Assembly: GCA_010671965.1 (NCBI GenBank)
Contig: JAAHIC010000004.1
Coordinates: 12,100 to 28,806, forward strand
Reading direction: 5' to 3'
DNA from: Leptolyngbya sp. SIO4C5
GTDB taxonomy: Bacteria > Cyanobacteriota > Cyanobacteriia > Phormidesmidales > Phormidesmidaceae
Length of the DNA: 16,707 nt
Shown: piece by piece, positions 8,900-16,421 of the stretch
How positions within the stretch are numbered: position 1 is the first letter of the stretch
Layout of the letters: each line of letters opens with the position of its first letter
The notes under the pieces: model-generated
Seen by the model: only the letters and a program-made list of their open reading frames with translations
The model's database searches: none
What the model was told of the DNA's origin: nothing
Program-made: the position numbers and the translations under genes

Positions 8900-10372
8900 A
8901 TGGCGGTCGCTCTCTCTCCCACCTCGTTTATTGGCAAGCCCATTCAGTTTGGTACGGATGGCTGGCGCGGCATGATGGCGGCAGACTTTACGTTTGAGCG
9001 GGTGGTGCAGGTAGCGCAGGTGGCGGCTCAGGTACTGCAGCAGCGCTATGGTGAGATGACCGGCAGCAACACGGTAATTGTGGGTCACGATCGCCGCTTT
9101 CTCTCCCCTGAGTTTGCCCGCGCCGCGGCTGAGGCGATCGCTCGTACGGGCTTCGATGTCATGCTGAGTGATACCTACGCGCCTACCCCCGCCTTTAGCT
9201 GGGCGGCTAAGGCCGAGAAGGCGCTAGGCGCGATCGTAATTACCGCTAGCCATAACCCAGCCATTTATTCCGGTCTAAAGATTAAAGGGGCCTTTGGCGG
9301 TTCCGTACCGCCAGAAGTGACCAAAGAAGTAGAAGCTCAGCTCCAGACTGACATTCCCCCAGCGGCAACATCCGGTCGGCTATCAACCTTCGATCCGTGG
9401 CCTAGCTACTGCCAGGGGCTGCAGGCCAAGGTGAATCTAGAGCCGATTCGGGCCGCGATCGCCAGCGGCAAGCTGACGGTGTTTGCCGATGTCATGCATG
9501 GAGCCGCCGCAACCGGACTAGAGCGACTGCTGGAAATGCCGATTGATGAGCTAAATGGGGCTGCCGATCCGCTATTTGGCGGCGGTTCCCCGGAGCCTCT
9601 ACCTAAATATTTAGCGAAAACCTTGGAAACGATCAAAGCCTATCAGCCCCAGGTTGACGGTGGGTTGACGGTAGGACTGGTCTTTGATGGGGACAGCGAT
9701 CGGATTGCGGCTGTAGACGGTCAGGGCAACTTTCTAAGCTCGCAAATTTTAATTCCGGTTTTGATTGATCATCTGGCAACTCGTCAGGGCTTGAAAGGCG
9801 AGGTGATTAAAACCATTAGCGGCTCTAACCTGATTCCCGCTGTTGCCAATATGCACGGCCTGTCGCTGCATGAAACGGCGATTGGCTACAAGTACATTGC
9901 CGATCGGATGCAGTCTCATCACGCCCTGATTGGCGGTGAGGAGTCAGGCGGTGTGGGCTACGGTCATCATATCCCTGAGCGGGATGCGCTGATGTCGGCG
10001 CTTTACGTGCTGGAGGCAGTCGTCATGTCTGGCCTCGATCTGAGCGACTATTACAGTCAGCTACAGCAGGCCACAGGCTACCAGTCTGAATACGATCGGA
10101 TTGACCTCCCCCTAGCCAGCATGGAAGTGCGATCGCGGCTGCTGGACGAGCTGAAAACCAATTTGCCTCAAACCGTAGCCGGTAAAGCGGTTAAAGACTG
10201 TCTGACCATTGACGGCTACAAGTTCACCCTGGAAGACGGCAGCTGGCTGCTGGTGCGTTTTAGCGGCACGGAACCGGTGCTGCGGCTTTACTCGGAAGCC
10301 AGCAGTTTAGAAGATGTCCATCGCCGTCTGAGCTGGGCCAAAGACTGGGCCGAAGCTGTGAGCAACGCCTGA
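8900..10372 (+). CDS. Phosphoglucomutase/phosphomannomutase family protein
   Basis: The product is 490 residues of the alpha-D-phosphohexomutase superfamily. All four domain signatures are present: FGTDGWRG (17-24), the phosphoserine loop TASHNP (115-120, catalytic S117), the metal-binding VFDGDSDR (261-268), the sugar-specificity loop GGEESGG (345-351), and the phosphate-binding RFSGTEP (453-459). It interconverts hexose-1- and hexose-6-phosphates, probably glucose phosphates for glycogen, sucrose or cell-envelope sugar supply. The GEESGG form is common to both Glc and Man/Glc enzymes, so substrate preference is open. The ATG is preceded by a weak AAGG about ten bases upstream. The gene converges on the epimerase-type reductase with only nine bases between stop codons, leaving no room for separate terminators. 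Confidence 0.92.
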   Translation: MAVALSPTSFIGKPIQFGTDGWRGMMAADFTFERVVQVAQVAAQVLQQRYGEMTGSNTVIVGHDRRFLSPEFARAAAEAIARTGFDVMLSDTYAPTPAFSWAAKAEKALGAIVITASHNPAIYSGLKIKGAFGGSVPPEVTKEVEAQLQTDIPPAATSGRLSTFDPWPSYCQGLQAKVNLEPIRAAIASGKLTVFADVMHGAAATGLERLLEMPIDELNGAADPLFGGGSPEPLPKYLAKTLETIKAYQPQVDGGLTVGLVFDGDSDRIAAVDGQGNFLSSQILIPVLIDHLATRQGLKGEVIKTISGSNLIPAVANMHGLSLHETAIGYKYIADRMQSHHALIGGEESGGVGYGHHIPERDALMSALYVLEAVVMSGLDLSDYYSQLQQATGYQSEYDRIDLPLASMEVRSRLLDELKTNLPQTVAGKAVKDCLTIDGYKFTLEDGSWLLVRFSGTEPVLRLYSEASSLEDVHRRLSWAKDWAEAVSNA

Positions 10373-10381
10373 AGCTAAGCA

Positions 10382-11341
10382 CTAGGAAACAGCCAGCTCT
10401 TGCAAAATTTCTGAGACGGCTCGTGGCTGCCAGCCCAGCTCTCGCTGAGCCTTGCTGGCGTCAATCCGCACACAGCGATCGTAGATATAGTGAACCCGCT
10501 CGCGGCTGAGGGGCGGGTTCCAGTTGAACAATCGTCCTACCGGATCGAGCAGGTTGCCGAGCAGCCTAACCAGCGTGGCGGGTGGTTCAGCCGGGGGGGC
10601 AATGCCTGTCTGCTGGCTCAAAATCTGAAACATCTCGCGGGTGGAGAGTTCTCCGGCAGAGATGATGTAGTGGGCTCCGGCGGGCGCTTTTTCAGCCGCA
10701 AGCAGCAGCGCGGCTACCAAATCATCGACATGGACGACGCCGGTAATGCGATCACCTCCCGGCCACAGCTTCAGCCGTCGCCGGCGGAAAAGCTGAATCA
10801 CCGGGCCAAAATGGGGGTCATCGGGGCCGAGGATACCGGCGGGCATGAGGCTAACCGTGTGTAGCCCCTCAGTTGCGGCCTGATCGACAAGCTGCTGGGC
10901 CTGGTATTTGGTGCGATCATAGGCGGAGGAAAAATCAGCCTGGGTGCGCTGGAAGGTTTCATTGACCACTTGGCCCTGGGTGTCACCGTAAATGCCAATG
11001 GTGCTGCAGTAAATGACTTGAGGCTGAGGATTAGCCGCCGCCGCCGCTGCTAAAACCGTACGGGTTCCTTCCACGTTGACCCGCTGCATCCGAGCGGCAT
11101 CCACCAGCCCTAGATCTACATAGGCAGCAATGTGAAACACCACGTCAACGCCCTGCATCGCTTTTTCCAAGGCGGGGCGATCGCCAATGTCACCGTAAAC
11201 CAGCTTAATATCCGTATCGGCTAGCCGCGCAAGATCGCTGGTTTGGCGGACAAAGCCAATCACTTCATCACCGCGATCGCGCAGGGCTTTAACCAAGTGC
11301 GATCCGGTAAAGCCATTGGCTCCGGTAACTAAAGCTTTCAT
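10382..11341 (-). CDS. NAD-dependent epimerase/dehydratase-type reductase (CerR-like candidate)
   Basis: The product is 319 residues, an extended short-chain dehydrogenase. The dinucleotide site is G7-x2-G10-x2-G13 in VTGANGFTGSH. The catalytic set is S111-T112 (YCSTIGIYG) with Y139-x3-K143 (SAYDRTKY). HIAAYVDLG (68-76) is typical of the dihydroflavonol-reductase/HpnA-like branch. The ATG overlaps the stop of the upstream acyltransferase gene in an ATGA arrangement (11338-11341), so the two are translationally coupled. In Caulobacter an enzyme of this class (CerR) reduces the keto group in ceramide synthesis. With an oxoamine synthase and an acyltransferase in the same operon, I infer a 3-keto-sphingoid or 3-keto-ceramide reductase. 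Alternatives are a sugar-nucleotide epimerase or another ketoreductase. Confidence 0.85.
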   Translation of the reverse strand: MKALVTGANGFTGSHLVKALRDRGDEVIGFVRQTSDLARLADTDIKLVYGDIGDRPALEKAMQGVDVVFHIAAYVDLGLVDAARMQRVNVEGTRTVLAAAAAANPQPQVIYCSTIGIYGDTQGQVVNETFQRTQADFSSAYDRTKYQAQQLVDQAATEGLHTVSLMPAGILGPDDPHFGPVIQLFRRRRLKLWPGGDRITGVVHVDDLVAALLLAAEKAPAGAHYIISAGELSTREMFQILSQQTGIAPPAEPPATLVRLLGNLLDPVGRLFNWNPPLSRERVHYIYDRCVRIDASKAQRELGWQPRAVSEILQELAVS

Positions 11342-12474
11342 AGCGCTTTTTCGTAAATGCGATAGGTCTTAGTAATGTGGGCCCCCGAAGCCTCAATAAT
11401 CTTGCGCGAGGGCAGATTGTCTTCAAACACCCAAGACAGCTCCGCCTGCTTGTAAGGCTTTTGCTTTTTAGTGCCGCCTTTCATGCCCAGATAGACCAGC
11501 GCCAGCGGCACCATCTTACGGCGATACTCCGGCAGGGCGCAGATGGCAATCACCCGGCCTCGGTCAATCTGGCGGCGATACCAGAGAAACTTGAGAATCC
11601 CCAGCCAGTTGAGCCGACCGTTGACCTGCTTTAAGGGAATGTTGTAGTCCGGTAGCCCCATAAAAAAGCCAATCATTTGGCCCTGATCTTCCGCAATAAC
11701 AAAGACATCTGGATCGACAAGCTGCTGTAGCTCTTTGGCCTCTGCCATAAACTCCGCCTCAGTCCGGGCCGAAGAACTCCAGTTGTGGGCAAAGGCGGTC
11801 GTGAAAAGCTGATAAAGGCTGCGGCAGTCCTGCTCGAAGGCTTCACCCTTGGTGTGGATGGGCCGAAAAGTAATGCCCGCTTTCTGGGCAATCTGGCAGG
11901 CGCGCTCAAACTGGCTAGGCAATGTGTGAGCTAGGGGCAAGTCATAGGCGTAGGCGTCTTTGGCTTTGTGCCAGCCCGCCCGCTGCATAAACTCATCGTA
12001 GTAGGGCGGATTGTAGGGCATCATCACCATCGGCGGCGTATCAAATCCATCGACTAAAAAGAAGCAGTTATTGTGGGTGGACAGATCGATGGGGCCACGG
12101 GCGAGGGGAATGTCGCGATCGCGCAGCCATTGACAAGCCTGTTCTAGCAGCGCTTCAGCGATCGCAAACTCTTCTATACATTCAAAAAAACCGAACAGAC
12201 CCACAGGCTGCTCTTCTCGCTCAATCAGCCGCTGATTGATAGCCGCCACAATTCGGCCTACGGGCTGTTCTGCAGAGAAGGCGACAAACTGCTGCAGCTC
12301 GCCGTAGCCAAAGAACGGATTGCTGGGCTGAAACTGCTTAGCAATGCTGGATTTGAGCGGCTGCACCCAGTTTGGATCGCCCTGATAGACGCGATCGGGT
12401 ACCGCGAGAAAGGCGGCCTGCTCGTCAGGGGTGGTAACAGGTTTGATTTCAAACTGGGTTTTAACTGCGGTCAT
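11338..12474 (-). CDS. GNAT-fold acyltransferase (bacterial ceramide synthase-like candidate)
   Basis: The product is 378 residues with two GNAT-like halves. The N-terminal half includes VAFSAEQPVGRIVAAIN (64-80). It leads to a conserved-looking block at 127-159 (GPIDLSTHNNCFF, then DGFDTPPMVMM and PYNPPYY). The second half includes FVIAEDQGQMIGFFMGLPDYN (about 256-276) and the C-terminal RKIIEASGAHITKTYRIYEK. No transmembrane helix is evident, unlike eukaryotic ceramide synthases. From memory, bacterial ceramide synthase bCerS of Caulobacter belongs to this type of soluble or peripheral acyltransferase. With the oxoamine synthase upstream and the reductase overlapping downstream, I infer N-acylation of a sphingoid-like amine. 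Other amines cannot be excluded. A 123-bp gap with two palindromes separates it from the synthase. Confidence 0.8.
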   Translation of the reverse strand: MTAVKTQFEIKPVTTPDEQAAFLAVPDRVYQGDPNWVQPLKSSIAKQFQPSNPFFGYGELQQFVAFSAEQPVGRIVAAINQRLIEREEQPVGLFGFFECIEEFAIAEALLEQACQWLRDRDIPLARGPIDLSTHNNCFFLVDGFDTPPMVMMPYNPPYYDEFMQRAGWHKAKDAYAYDLPLAHTLPSQFERACQIAQKAGITFRPIHTKGEAFEQDCRSLYQLFTTAFAHNWSSSARTEAEFMAEAKELQQLVDPDVFVIAEDQGQMIGFFMGLPDYNIPLKQVNGRLNWLGILKFLWYRRQIDRGRVIAICALPEYRRKMVPLALVYLGMKGGTKKQKPYKQAELSWVFEDNLPSRKIIEASGAHITKTYRIYEKAL

Positions 12475-12518
12475 AACAGATCACCGGGCAGCATCACCGT
12501 CATTGTCGCGGAAAAGGC

Positions 12519-12543
12519 GTAGAGTGGGCAATGCCCACCCTAC
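12519..12543. repeat. Dispersed palindrome, copy 1
   Basis: This is a 25-bp inverted repeat centred on 12531, with core GTGGGCA-A-TGCCCAC, extended by GTAGA on the left and CCTAC on the right, and one mismatch in twelve pairs. The GTGGGCA...TGCCCAC palindrome is, from memory, of a type scattered through many cyanobacterial intergenic regions. In the operon mRNA it would form a stable stem. Confidence 0.85.
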
Positions 12544-12565
12544 AATCTGCGCCGCGTAATTAACC

Positions 12566-12590
12566 AGAGAGTGGGCAATGCCCACCCTAC
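12566..12590. repeat. Dispersed palindrome, copy 2
   Basis: This copy has the same core GTGGGCA-A-TGCCCAC centred on 12578, exactly 47 bp from copy 1 and in the same orientation, ending just before the oxoamine synthase stop codon. The outer two pairs are degenerate. The pair could stabilise or process the mRNA between the synthase and acyltransferase coding parts, or attenuate downstream transcription. Confidence 0.85.
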
Positions 12591-12597
12591 ACCGCAA

Positions 12598-13884
12598 TTA
12601 GGCTGTGTACTGGACCACTGAGCCGCACAGCTTTTCACGGACGGCCATCATCGCCTCGACGAGCTGATCCATCTCCGCCTGAGTATGGAGGGCGTTGGCG
12701 GTAATGCGCAGCCGCGGCTTGGCGATAAACCAAATCGGTGAAACCCAGAGGCCGAACTCTTCCATCAGACAGCGGGCAAAGGGCTTGGGCTTGAGTTCGG
12801 GGGGCAAGATCACCGGAATGACGTTGGTTTCACCAATTGCCTCAAATCCGGCGTCAACCAGGCGCGATCGCAGATAGCGGGTATTAGACTGCAGCGTTGC
12901 CACCAGTTCCGGATGTTGGCGAACTTGGCGAATGCTTTCTAGGGCAGCGGCTGTGACCGGCGGCGGCAGCGAAATCGTGCCAATTGAGGTAGGAGAAACA
13001 TCCAGCAGGTCGATCAGTTCCCGGTTGGGAGCGCTGATGGCAGCCCCGGCCGATCCGGCAAACTTCGAGAAGGTCGTCATGATTAAGGGCACAATGCCGC
13101 GATCGATTACCGATTGGGGCGAAATGCCAAAGTGATCGTAGATTCCTTCGCCTTTGGGACCAATGGCACCGCTGGCATGGGCTTCATCCATAACCACAAC
13201 GCTGCCGGGATGACTTTCTAAAATGTCAAGCATCTGAGGCAGAGGCACCACGTCCCCGTCCATCGAGAACACAGCGTCCGAGATGACCATAACGCGATCG
13301 CCCGGACGCGCATAGCGCCGTACTTTTCGAGCGAGATCGTCCATATCACAGTGCCGATAAGCCTTCACCCGCACGTTGGGACTGTGGCTAAACATCTTGC
13401 CAGAGCGATTGCTAGCGTTGACCACGGCTGAAATAATACAGCCATGATTGAGTACGTCAGTGAAGATGACGGTTTCTCGCGTATGCTCAAAGCCAGGGAC
13501 GGGCACCGCCAAATGGCAAAAACCATCCATCAGCGCCTGCAGCGCCATCCAGGCATTGAGAAATAAATGGGTATGGGGTAGATGCTTAAAGGCGGAAATT
13601 TCTTGCTCTAGCTGTCGATGCAGATCAATCCGACCGCTGAGAACCGAGCAAGAGCTATTGGAAGTACCGTATTGAAGAATCGACTCAATTGCGGCCTGCT
13701 TCACAGGTTCAGCCTGAGCCAGTCCCAACACATCGTTCGTGCAAAAAGTTAAGACCTTGTGATGCTTGCCAGTCGTCTGTTCTTCAATCTCGACCAGATT
13801 ACCCTGCTTTTGATGGCAGATAAACTTATCGGGATAGAGGCCACTGGCATAAAGATGCTGCATGTAGTCATTAACGACGTCCAC
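12598..13884 (-). CDS. Alpha-oxoamine synthase (serine palmitoyltransferase-like)
   Basis: The product is 428 residues, a PLP-dependent fold-type I enzyme of the family that condenses an amino acid with an acyl thioester and releases CO2 (Spt, BioF, Kbl, HemA, CqsA). Visible sites are YGTSNSSCSVLSG (72-84), H147 of DVLNHG (cofactor-stacking His), ISDAVFSMDGD (201-211), VMDEAHASG (231-239, D233) and the lysine K274 in TTFSKFAGS. The glycine-rich segment differs from the usual YGxGxxGSR, and there are extra residues around 124-140 and 164-171 (KMFSHSPN). The start is GTG 13884, with AGAGGA seven bases upstream overlapping the Rieske stop. There is no biotin or threonine-degradation neighbour; the neighbours suggest sphingoid-base synthesis. 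The exact amino acid and acyl substrate are inferred only. Confidence 0.88.
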   Translation of the reverse strand: MDVVNDYMQHLYASGLYPDKFICHQKQGNLVEIEEQTTGKHHKVLTFCTNDVLGLAQAEPVKQAAIESILQYGTSNSSCSVLSGRIDLHRQLEQEISAFKHLPHTHLFLNAWMALQALMDGFCHLAVPVPGFEHTRETVIFTDVLNHGCIISAVVNASNRSGKMFSHSPNVRVKAYRHCDMDDLARKVRRYARPGDRVMVISDAVFSMDGDVVPLPQMLDILESHPGSVVVMDEAHASGAIGPKGEGIYDHFGISPQSVIDRGIVPLIMTTFSKFAGSAGAAISAPNRELIDLLDVSPTSIGTISLPPPVTAAALESIRQVRQHPELVATLQSNTRYLRSRLVDAGFEAIGETNVIPVILPPELKPKPFARCLMEEFGLWVSPIWFIAKPRLRITANALHTQAEMDQLVEAMMAVREKLCGSVVQYTA

Positions 13885-13891
13885 AATCTAT

Positions 13892-13897
13892 TCCTCT
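13892..13897 (-). promoter_or_regulatory. Shine-Dalgarno of the oxoamine synthase
   Basis: AGAGGA on the minus strand lies seven bases before GTG 13884 and shares a base with the TGA stop of the Rieske gene. It selects the GTG over the in-frame ATG seven codons later and implies coupling of the two genes. Confidence 0.75.
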
Positions 13898-15018
13898 CAC
13901 CTACACTTAGAATCCTGAACTAATTCGAAATCACGGTCGCTTGCAATCTCAGTTGGTGGGTTCAATGACCGATCTGATTGTTGCATGAACTTTTCGTACT
14001 GGCCGATAATCACTCGCTGCAGGGCAATAATGGCAGGATTAACTTCCACATAGCTGCGCTGGGGATTGGCCGTATAGTTGCGCTGCTCACTTTCCATCAT
14101 CTCAACATCTTGATGGAGAAACTTGAGAAAGATTTGATGCAGCACCGCTTTTTCTAGCAGATTGCCAAGCTTACCCTGACGTAGCCAGCGAGGAATTGGC
14201 AGCTTCAGAAACAGCATGGAAAAAGAGCGCGTCAGCGTCGGGCCTACAGGTAGCCGCATCAAGTACAGCGAGGAAACTCCCTCTAAAGAGCTGTGATAGT
14301 GCGGATACTGATAGTGAATTGAAACAGTGCGAGTCGTCACCCCACTGCCCGTGCCCAGTCCCATCAGCTTGGTCAATACACCCCGGTAGGACACCTGATA
14401 GTCTGCATAGACATCGGCCTCGGTTTGCTTCAGCTTCAGCAAAACTGGATCAAACCAGCCCTGCAGTTCTTTGTGCAAAAAGCCGTGAAACACATCCATT
14501 GTGTTTTCGTTGCAGATGGAAAAATGAGCCTGGAACTCGCCTGGAATTCGCACCATAAACCATTCTTTGGCATCGTACTCAGGCACTGCGGGCGGCTGAT
14601 GCAAACTGGCTAAATCCGGATCGCCGGGAAAGAGCCAAAGAATGCCATACTTTTCTTGAGTGGGATAGCTGCGAGCCTGAGCGCAGGGTAGCTTTTGATC
14701 CGCTGGAAAGTAGGGAATTTGAACACATTTTCCAGCGCTATCAAATTCCCAGCCGTGATAGGGACAGGTGAGATGAGAGCCATGAACCTCGCCTTTGTGC
14801 AGTTCGACCCCCTTGTGAGGGCAGGCATCCTCTAAGGCATGAACTTGCCCAGAAGCATCGCGATAAATCGCAATTTTTTGCTGCCAAATGGTGACAGGCA
14901 TAACTTCGCCGGGTTTGAGCTGTTCGGCCCAGCCAGCGGGATACCAGTAGTTGGGATTGATGCTAGTTTCGCGAACACGCCGGTAAATAGATTGGCCTTT
15001 GAGAACAGCTAGTTCCAT
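13897..15018 (-). CDS. Rieske non-haem iron oxygenase, alpha-subunit type
   Basis: The product is 373 residues from ATG 15018; an in-frame TTG at 15030 would add four. The N-terminal Rieske [2Fe-2S] domain has C66-x-H68 (CPHKG) and C85-x2-H88 (CPYHGW). The C-terminal catalytic domain has a mononuclear iron site N172..D175-x2-H178-x3-H182 (ENTMDVFHGFLH) and the carboxylate D304 (LHQDVEMMESEQ). Such enzymes use O2 and electrons from a reductase for hydroxylation, desaturation or demethylation. The domain order resembles the PaO/Tic55/CAO-like cyanobacterial group and other single-component oxygenases. No reductase or ferredoxin gene is in view. It is the first gene of the putative lipid operon, with 12 bases to the synthase, so I infer that its substrate is the sphingoid- or ceramide-like product or its fatty acyl chain. 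No HIP1 site occurs in it. Confidence 0.88.
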   Translation of the reverse strand: MELAVLKGQSIYRRVRETSINPNYWYPAGWAEQLKPGEVMPVTIWQQKIAIYRDASGQVHALEDACPHKGVELHKGEVHGSHLTCPYHGWEFDSAGKCVQIPYFPADQKLPCAQARSYPTQEKYGILWLFPGDPDLASLHQPPAVPEYDAKEWFMVRIPGEFQAHFSICNENTMDVFHGFLHKELQGWFDPVLLKLKQTEADVYADYQVSYRGVLTKLMGLGTGSGVTTRTVSIHYQYPHYHSSLEGVSSLYLMRLPVGPTLTRSFSMLFLKLPIPRWLRQGKLGNLLEKAVLHQIFLKFLHQDVEMMESEQRNYTANPQRSYVEVNPAIIALQRVIIGQYEKFMQQSDRSLNPPTEIASDRDFELVQDSKCR

Positions 15019-15040
15019 AGATAAGGGCAAGACTGTAACG

Positions 15041-15258: not shown

Positions 15259-16035
15259 TTAAAAAGTTGCGCTGACGCCCTGTAGCTGCAGAACTGCTGG
15301 CTGGCGAACCTGGACAATCAGCAGTGAAAAATAGGGCAGCTTGAGATCATGATGCTGACTGAGACCAGCATAGATCACCTGATTCGATCCTGTGGCATTC
15401 TGCACGATAAAGCTGCGGTCTAAAAGCTGATGCTGCTGCAGAATCGACCAGACCTGCTGATAGACTGAACTCATTTTCAGTAAAACAATAACGTCCGCCC
15501 AGGCAATTACTTGCTCTAGCTGTTCTGGGGCATAAAGGGCTGGCAGAACGGCCAGGTTTTGGGCCTGAATTGTCAGGGGGATGCCCAGAGCTGCTGCCGC
15601 TGCCAGAGGCGAACAGATCCCTGGAACCGCTTGAATCTGACTTTGCGGATAGCAATGATGCAGGGTTTGGGCCAGATAGGAGAAGGTGCTGTAGAAGCTG
15701 ATATCGCCTTCGCTGGCGAATACCACGTCTTTTCCCTGCTGTAGATAGGCCCAGACCTGGGCTGCTGCCTGCTGCCAAGCCGCCTGCAGCTCGGCTTCAT
15801 CCTGCACATAGGGAAATCTTAGGGGTAACTGGATCTGCTGGGGGGACAGCCACTGGGCGATCGCCTGCTGCGCCATGCCGGGTCGATTTCCGCTGCCTGC
15901 CGGAAACGCCACCACTGCTGCCGCTTGCAAATGCCGCAACGCCTTTAGCGTAATGAGTTCTGGATCACCTGGCCCCACCCCAATGCCATACAGCGTTCCC
16001 AGTCTCCGATCTGATGCCTGATCAAACTCTGTCAC
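15259..16035 (-). CDS. cobI: Precorrin-2 / cobalt-factor II C20-methyltransferase
   Basis: The product is 258 residues from GTG 16035, in the family's usual range. It is a SAM-dependent tetrapyrrole methylase acting at C20 in cobalamin ring synthesis. The SAM/tetrapyrrole motif GIGVGPGDPELITLKA is at 17-32, the family hallmark SEGDISFYSTFSYL at 108-121, and VPGICSPLAAAAALGIPL at 137-154. The open frame extends to TTG 16068 (269 residues), but a purine-rich GAGGGAGAGGG precedes GTG 16035, and the extra residues are acidic and non-conserved in appearance. Whether the substrate carries cobalt (CbiL) or not (CobI) is unclear; cyanobacteria are generally thought to use the cobalt-early route. It is separated from the Rieske operon by 240 bp and lacks adjacent cob genes. 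Confidence 0.92.
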   Translation of the reverse strand: MTEFDQASDRRLGTLYGIGVGPGDPELITLKALRHLQAAAVVAFPAGSGNRPGMAQQAIAQWLSPQQIQLPLRFPYVQDEAELQAAWQQAAAQVWAYLQQGKDVVFASEGDISFYSTFSYLAQTLHHCYPQSQIQAVPGICSPLAAAAALGIPLTIQAQNLAVLPALYAPEQLEQVIAWADVIVLLKMSSVYQQVWSILQQHQLLDRSFIVQNATGSNQVIYAGLSQHHDLKLPYFSLLIVQVRQPAVLQLQGVSATF

Positions 16036-16421
16036 TTCACTATTTCCCTCTCCCTCGTTGCCATCCAATCCCTATTTAACTGATGAGCTACGGAGTTTAG
16101 AGTTTGAGACGCTAGTAGTAGTGAAAAAATCTCTCCCTTGCTTCTGCTTAGTAAGGGGCATAGCGACAGCGGGGCAGATCTCGCAATTAGCTGAAACCTC
16201 GTCAAGTGCCTAAGTCCTGTTAATCATTAATTGGTTAACTTGGTTAATCTCCAATAAAGACCCCTAGTCACTATTACAGATGCTTTTACCCCTTGTCACT
16301 TTGCCGGGTGATTTAGCTGGCGCAGTGTCCTCTAGAAACAGCGCAGCGCCAACCGGGGGATTTGTCAGGCTAGAGCACAGCCGTTTCACTCAAAGCAGGC
16401 TATACTAAAAAGCGGAATTAA
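16036..16421. other. 386-bp non-coding region between cobI and tRNA-Pro
   Basis: No gene is seen. It holds three GTTAA-containing units (16220-16249, including TTGGTTAA twice at a nine-base period, 16231-16238 and 16240-16247), a 6-bp-arm inverted repeat TGGCGC/GCGCCA (16318-16323 and 16346-16351), and TATACT at 16401-16406, a likely -10 element for the tRNA. A cobalamin riboswitch was looked for upstream of cobI and not supported. Confidence 0.55.
16401..16406 (+). promoter_or_regulatory. Probable -10 element of tRNA-Pro(TGG)
   Basis: TATACT lies 15 bases before the mature tRNA 5' end and matches the sigma-70 -10 consensus at five of six positions. I could not find a -35 with good spacing. 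Confidence 0.5.

Follow-up and report, generated by a model that had tools for sequence, protein, structure and literature searches.

Two ceramides have been reported from cyanobacteria, without a genetic basis (Belton et al. 2022; PMC8895605). Does a four-gene operon of Leptolyngbya sp. SIO4C5 encode the synthesis of such lipids? The operon lies in a stretch of 16,707 nucleotides (contig JAAHIC010000004.1, positions 12,100 to 28,806), hereafter called the window, on contig C538 of a 5.6 Mb genome that is 98.8% complete. Its four minus-strand open reading frames (ORFs) encode, in this order, a Rieske non-haem iron oxygenase (RO), an alpha-oxoamine synthase (AOS), an acyltransferase of the GNAT fold and an extended short-chain dehydrogenase/reductase (SDR). 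An initial annotation had taken the last three genes for the Spt/bCerS/CerR set of bacterial ceramide synthesis and the oxygenase for an addition to it; its remark that sphingolipids are not standard membrane lipids of cyanobacteria agrees with Belton et al. We conclude that the operon probably encodes a divergent ceramide-type pathway, which is the best-supported reading of our data; the chemistry, that is, every reaction, the reaction order, the substrates and export, we infer from the genes.

The link to ceramide synthesis begins with the acyltransferase. As bCerS reference we used YghO of E. coli BL21, whose genome stretch we retrieved, in place of Caulobacter CC_1154; yghO (ECD_02850) is the counterpart of CC_1154 (bCerS) and lies near aasR, cerR, acpR and spt (Padilla-Gomez et al., PMC9386255). 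The window protein can be aligned with YghO from end to end (30% identity over 380 residues, 170 bits), and identities of 30–35% were found to bCerS in seven of the ten alphaproteobacterial Spt loci compared. The general Acetyltransf_1 profile was barely above its cut-off (24.2 versus 20.7 bits). In alphaproteobacteria, the family follows Spt: with Spt-positive genomes defined by a match to NF047603 at E <=1e-90 (13 of 115 genomes), YghO relatives occurred in 12 of 13 Spt-positive versus one of 35 Spt-negative genomes of a 50-genome subset, the 35 excluding two Rhodobacteraceae with the window-type AOS. In the lone exception, G422, the bCerS gene adjoins an AOS gene whose product falls in the Spt clade (98/94). 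This pair is followed by genes for an ABC ATPase fused to a cNMP-binding domain and for an FtsX-type permease (L108 2913-9752). A tree of 29 sequences divided the window-type acyltransferases and the proteobacterial bCerS proteins into two separate groups, each supported at 100/100. Judged by sequence, the acyltransferase is along its entire length a member of the bCerS (YghO/CC_1154) family, which upholds the initial annotation on this point, and falls in a sister subfamily outside the proteobacterial bCerS clade. A Scytonema acyltransferase with 71% identity to that of the window was among the matches listed; published ceramides of cyanobacteria come from Scytonema julianum and Moorea/Moorena.

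We then asked which genes accompany the AOS. Among 386 genomes of the phylum, 28 carried the window-type AOS (67-100% identity, the next matches being at most 39%). Acyltransferase orthologues (56-100%) were present in all 28, versus one of 117 AOS-negative genomes (37 picked by hand plus 80 more), and SDR orthologues (59-100%) likewise in all 28, versus none of six AOS-negative genomes, where the best match was 35%. Weaker acyltransferase relatives in AOS-negative genomes amounted to a full-length match in G278 (29%) and partial ones in G008 (28%) and G211 (23%). The three genes co-occur even when unlinked, e.g. in G116 and G011, and the same set is found in two Rhodobacteraceae, EL53 (L066) and Shimia abyssi (L067). 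RO orthologues (at least 56%) were detected in 18 of the 28 AOS-positive versus one of 37 AOS-negative genomes. Because the acyltransferase and SDR genes accompany the AOS in every case and the RO gene in 18, the trio forms a module to which RO is accessory; the earlier view of the oxygenase as an add-on fits this distribution, with the oxidation itself being conjectural. A GH3-family gene (49-60%) was found in 22 of the 28 genomes and in none of 36 AOS-negative genomes other than G296 (weak partial matches in five of the 36); the window genome has it in two pieces, 49% and 42%, at contig ends. RO and GH3 are thus frequent partners of the trio. The one AOS-negative genome with acyltransferase and RO orthologues was in both cases G296, which also carries GH3 and is treated below. 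Fisher tests on these counts give overstated p-values, as the genomes share ancestry. An OlsC-like hydroxylase was tried as a further core part and rejected: matches of at least 61% occurred in only seven of the 28 genomes, and AOS-negative G118, G360 and G070 had matches of 48-51%.

The AOS forms its own clade (100/100), together with two Rhodobacteraceae sequences (56-58%) and one from Bacteroidia (43%). Its best PDB match is Sphingobacterium Spt, and it is 26% identical to E. coli Spt (111 bits). Residues H147, D233, H236, K274 and R393 are invariant in 25 rows of the alignment and align with those of Spt; these cofactor (pyridoxal phosphate) and substrate residues (His, Asp-x-x-His, Lys, Arg) are common to AOS enzymes generally. 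Two conserved insertions distinguish the clade and are absent from Spt, Kbl, BioF and ALAS. Serine is the commonest substrate of pathways that pair an AOS with bCerS, which counts against a different amino acid here, and the sequence itself names none. The own clade and its insertions would nevertheless suit the main rival to our reading, in which the same logic operates on alanine, glycine, cysteate or another amino acid and leads to a 1-deoxy-ceramide, a sulfonolipid-like or another N-acyl amino-ketone lipid. According to published work, alanine can serve as a substrate of Spt, and lysine is proposed as one (PMC11334938); a sulfotransferase-family gene neighbours the trio at the two Rhodobacteraceae loci. 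We regard this rival as unlikely, though deserving of serious attention.

Several observations weigh against a ceramide-type pathway. The AOS stays below all NCBIfam Spt cut-offs (NF047600, 170 of 640 bits; NF047599, 150 of 500; NF047603, 108 of 670), and in topology tests its grouping with Spt (approximately unbiased test, p 0.44), cyanobacterial BioF (p 0.50) or Kbl (p 0.13) was in no case rejected. A Nostoc punctiforme AOS of the BioF-type clade yielded no keto-base when tested (PMC8895605). In Bacteroidia, locus L069 (7947-11350) encodes an AOS of the window clade (43%) and no acyltransferase; the AOS is followed by genes for a TauD-type dioxygenase and an ATP-grasp protein, so the clade may serve other products too. 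Conversely, G278 has a distant bCerS-family gene (29% to the window acyltransferase, 28% to YghO) and no AOS in the 19 kb read, and the bCerS family is therefore not tied to AOS without exception. The G278 gene adjoins HlyD (DevB-like) and FtsX-type (DevC-like) genes (L157 6139-10042). For the SDR, a grouping with CerR is neither rejected nor established (p 0.425). Finally, the loci compared yielded no dedicated acyl carrier protein or acyl-ACP synthetase: neither AcpR nor AasR, which mark the rhodobacterial Spt system, had a match above 60 bits in loci L013, L060, L066 and L067, the loci alone being searched. Of the proposed Spt/bCerS/CerR equivalence, then, the family of the acyltransferase and the co-occurrence of the trio stood, and orthology of the AOS to Spt and of the SDR to CerR was not supported.

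The same tests bear on the idea that the AOS is simply a BioF- or Kbl-type enzyme. Its top NCBIfam match is bioF (TIGR00858, 220 bits, cut-off 426), the tree leaves the BioF and Kbl groupings unrejected, and the nearest group, weakly (58/71), is the cyanobacterial BioF type. Such a grouping, which the initial annotation had named as grounds for refutation, is thus neither established nor rejected. The AOS nonetheless falls below the BioF, Kbl and HemA cut-offs alike, and the window type is confined to 28 of the 386 genomes, always with the acyltransferase and SDR. Genes for Kbl (64% to E. coli Kbl) and for a BioF-type enzyme are present separately in the window genome, and we therefore consider this identity scarcely credible.

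The reductase and the oxygenase raise a further alternative, namely that they are a sterol or hopanoid oxidation pair like SdmA/SdmB, with AOS and acyltransferase having a separate role. Among NCBIfam models, RO indeed matches SdmA best (235 bits), and for the SDR, SdmB (141 bits) comes second after HpnA (187 bits, cut-off 368), the two Sdm matches lying below cut-offs of 600. The SDR, however, is present in all 28 AOS-positive genomes, including ten without RO, and the two Rhodobacteraceae carry AOS, acyltransferase and SDR with no RO on the locus. We set the pair aside as very improbable because the SDR goes with the AOS and not with RO. The SDR translation shows TGxxGxxG and YxxxK; the protein is 22% identical to CerR and forms its own clade, nearer to HpnA-like cyanobacterial paralogues (94/86; this label is taken from the best model of the window SDR itself) than to CerR. 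In Caulobacter, CerR is periplasmic and peripheral to the inner membrane (PMC11087976). Besides its Rieske domain (PF00355, E 2e-25), RO matches VanA_C (E 5e-6). Its translation contains the CxH..CxxH and DxxHxxxH patterns of Rieske oxygenases. Its best PDB matches are SxtDIOX and SxtT, oxygenases of the saxitoxin pathway.

The ORF coordinates (Table 1) bore out the arrangement first described, with four same-strand genes, 12 bases between RO and AOS, a longer gap after AOS and a 4-base ATGA overlap between the acyltransferase and SDR genes. The AOS matches Aminotran_1_2 at E 3e-34.

Table 1. Features of the operon, in order of transcription (positions in the window).
Feature	Position	Strand	Remarks
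Rieske non-haem iron oxygenase (RO)	13897..15030	-	first gene; start TTG 15030 or ATG 15018 (the start of the initial annotation)
Alpha-oxoamine synthase (AOS)	12598..13884	-	GTG start at 13884; PF00155
AOS-GNAT gap, 123 bp	12475..12597	-	two exact copies of a 20-base palindromic repeat
GNAT-fold acyltransferase, bCerS/YghO family	11338..12474	-	30% over 380 aa to YghO
Extended SDR (NAD-dependent epimerase/dehydratase type)	10382..11341	-	PF01370 (Epimerase), E 5e-40

The repeat copies in the gap lie at 12524-12543 and 12571-12590 (region 12519-12590; 0 mismatches), and shuffled sequences gave a mean of 0.00 matches. A promoter and terminator scan found nothing exceeding the shuffled mean. Upstream, on the same strand, lies cobI (15259-16068; NF004614 above its cut-off); downstream, a convergent gene of the phosphoglucomutase family ends at 10372.

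To see how far this order is conserved, we scanned one genome per species with the AOS, which gave 65 loci, or 61 after four weak AOS matches had been dropped. RO lay directly upstream of AOS on the same strand in 44 of the 61, the acyltransferase gene directly downstream in 33, and the SDR gene within the locus in 26. When the count is restricted to loci with sufficient flanking sequence, the figures were 43/57, 28/50 and 21/44 respectively, with all three in 14/43; the layout exceeds chance. The nearest named AOS locus (94%) is that of Leptolyngbyaceae cyanobacterium RM1_1_2. Named carriers of the AOS include Prochloron, Richelia, Leptothoe and Adonisia, several of which are host-associated; a carrier in culture is Baaleninema simplex PCC 7105.

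Other genes recur around the AOS in the 65 loci: MFS transporter (34 loci), GH3 (17), OlsC-like Asp/Asn hydroxylase (14), DevA (13), JmjC-like cupin (11), fatty-acid-hydroxylase family (10), B12 radical SAM (10), fatty acid desaturase (8) and DevC (7). The MFS gene, often just upstream of RO and divergent (e.g. L013 5355-6596), is possibly a lipid transporter. In Vasconcelosia (L013), about 13 kb hold hydroxylase, MFS, RO, AOS, acyltransferase, SDR, DevA, DevC, GH3 and fatty-acid-hydroxylase genes. At the two Rhodobacteraceae loci, AOS and acyltransferase genes lie near radical SAM, SDR, DevB-family, DevA/DevC-like, sulfotransferase-family and GH3 genes, with DevB above its cut-off and DevA and DevC slightly below theirs in L066; these loci possibly represent an alphaproteobacterial version of the pathway. 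The GH3 protein scores best against the NCBIfam model OlsH (100 bits, below the cut-off of 620); the founding member of that family couples ornithine with fatty acids (PMC12493201).

G296, the exceptional genome noted above, has acyltransferase and SDR genes side by side together with RO and GH3, and lacks the window-type AOS. Its GH3 contig (C55; L111 603-12295) carries in a row a fatty acyl-AMP-ligase-like gene, a polyketide synthase (PKS) gene and an SDR gene. The PKS (2760 residues) has ketosynthase, acyltransferase, dehydratase, ketoreductase and carrier domains and, at its end, an AOS domain, which the tree places on the Spt side (97/95); the best PDB match of the SDR is TSC10, the 3-ketodihydrosphingosine reductase. 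In this cyanobacterium, these genes are candidates for a sphinganine cluster of the PKS type. Most simply, a different sphingoid-base route would have taken the place of the AOS in G296, which counts in favour of the ceramide-type reading, though an assembly gap may also account for the missing gene. A further fusion, of a fatty acyl-AMP ligase to an AOS domain in a single 1151-residue ORF, was seen in G002 (L127 3355-6810).

Such fusions to PKS or fatty acyl-AMP ligase parts in related genomes, like the saxitoxin-pathway matches of RO, would be expected if AOS, acyltransferase and Rieske oxygenase had been borrowed for a pigment, alkaloid or signal and no membrane or envelope lipid were made. 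We judge a specialised metabolite pathway of this kind improbable: no PKS or non-ribosomal peptide synthetase gene was recognised beside the window operon, the recurrent neighbours are of lipid type, and the acyltransferase is in the bCerS family.

In the ceramide-type pathway that we favour, the AOS would form a 3-keto long-chain base by condensing an amino acid, most likely serine, with a fatty acyl thioester; the acyltransferase would add a second acyl chain to the nitrogen and the SDR would reduce the ketone. In the subset of species that includes this one, RO would then oxidise the lipid, either by hydroxylation or by converting a methyl or alcohol group to an acid. In many relatives the trio is accompanied by more lipid genes, for hydroxylases or a desaturase, an amide synthetase of the GH3 type and an exporter of the DevBCA type, so that the product is probably modified and exported. 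Taken further, and as a tentative proposal about which we remain doubtful, cyanobacteria and some marine Rhodobacteraceae might share an unrecognised lipid pathway built on the new AOS clade, in which oxygenases (Rieske in cyanobacteria) and an OlsH-like amino-acid ligase of the GH3 type finish an N-acylated long-chain base, and a transporter of the DevBCA type exports it. Its products, outer-membrane lipids of ceramide type that would be oxidised and perhaps amino-acyl, would form a new subclass.

The locus offers a different, testable gene set for the open question of cyanobacterial sphingolipids and could supply the missing genetic basis. In our literature search, no paper connected these genes with sphingolipids of cyanobacteria, the phyla list of the 2022 Nat. 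Chem. Biol. paper on convergent ceramide synthesis lying outside the comparison. A Black Sea screen required E <=1e-70 to known Spt and 1e-30 for bCerS (PMC11334938). By our own arithmetic, 111 bits to E. coli Spt correspond to E ~1e-23 at the database size of that screen, and since 1e-70 was required, Spt-first surveys would probably miss the operon; the acyltransferase, with 170 bits to YghO, would pass the bCerS limit (the queries of the screen were other sequences). Exported sphingolipids, if they exist, could matter to the hosts of the host-associated carriers.

Among known systems, SdmA/SdmB of sterol C4-demethylation provide the nearest named model for RO and the second-nearest for the SDR, from which the window differs in that both proteins fall far short of the cut-offs and the SDR is coupled to AOS and acyltransferase. 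The Npun_R3567 clade likewise consists of cyanobacterial AOS, of BioF type; it differs in that it includes the one that made no keto-base (PMC8895605) and in that the window genome has a copy at 35% beside the window AOS. The SgaAB cluster of Pseudomonas fluorescens MYb115 similarly leads to a sphingoid base through an AOS other than that of the classical Spt gene (PMC12134224); in contrast to it, the window operon has no PKS, the PKS-AOS gene being found in G296, which lacks the window-type AOS. Similar to the heterocyst DevBCA exporter are the DevB-family gene of L066 and the DevA-family genes of 13 AOS loci, whereas the window contains no such exporter. Another comparison is with the ceramide set of Caulobacter and E. 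coli BL21, comprising Spt (CC_1162, ECD_02854), bCerS (CC_1154, YghO), CerR (CC_1164, ECD_02852), AcpR and AasR. The window differs from it by the RO gene within the operon, by an AOS and an SDR that are distant from Spt (26%) and CerR (22%), each in a clade of its own, and, in the four loci compared, by the absence of AcpR and AasR matches. Like that set, it unites an AOS, an acyltransferase of the bCerS family and an epimerase-type reductase in one neighbourhood (PMC9386255).

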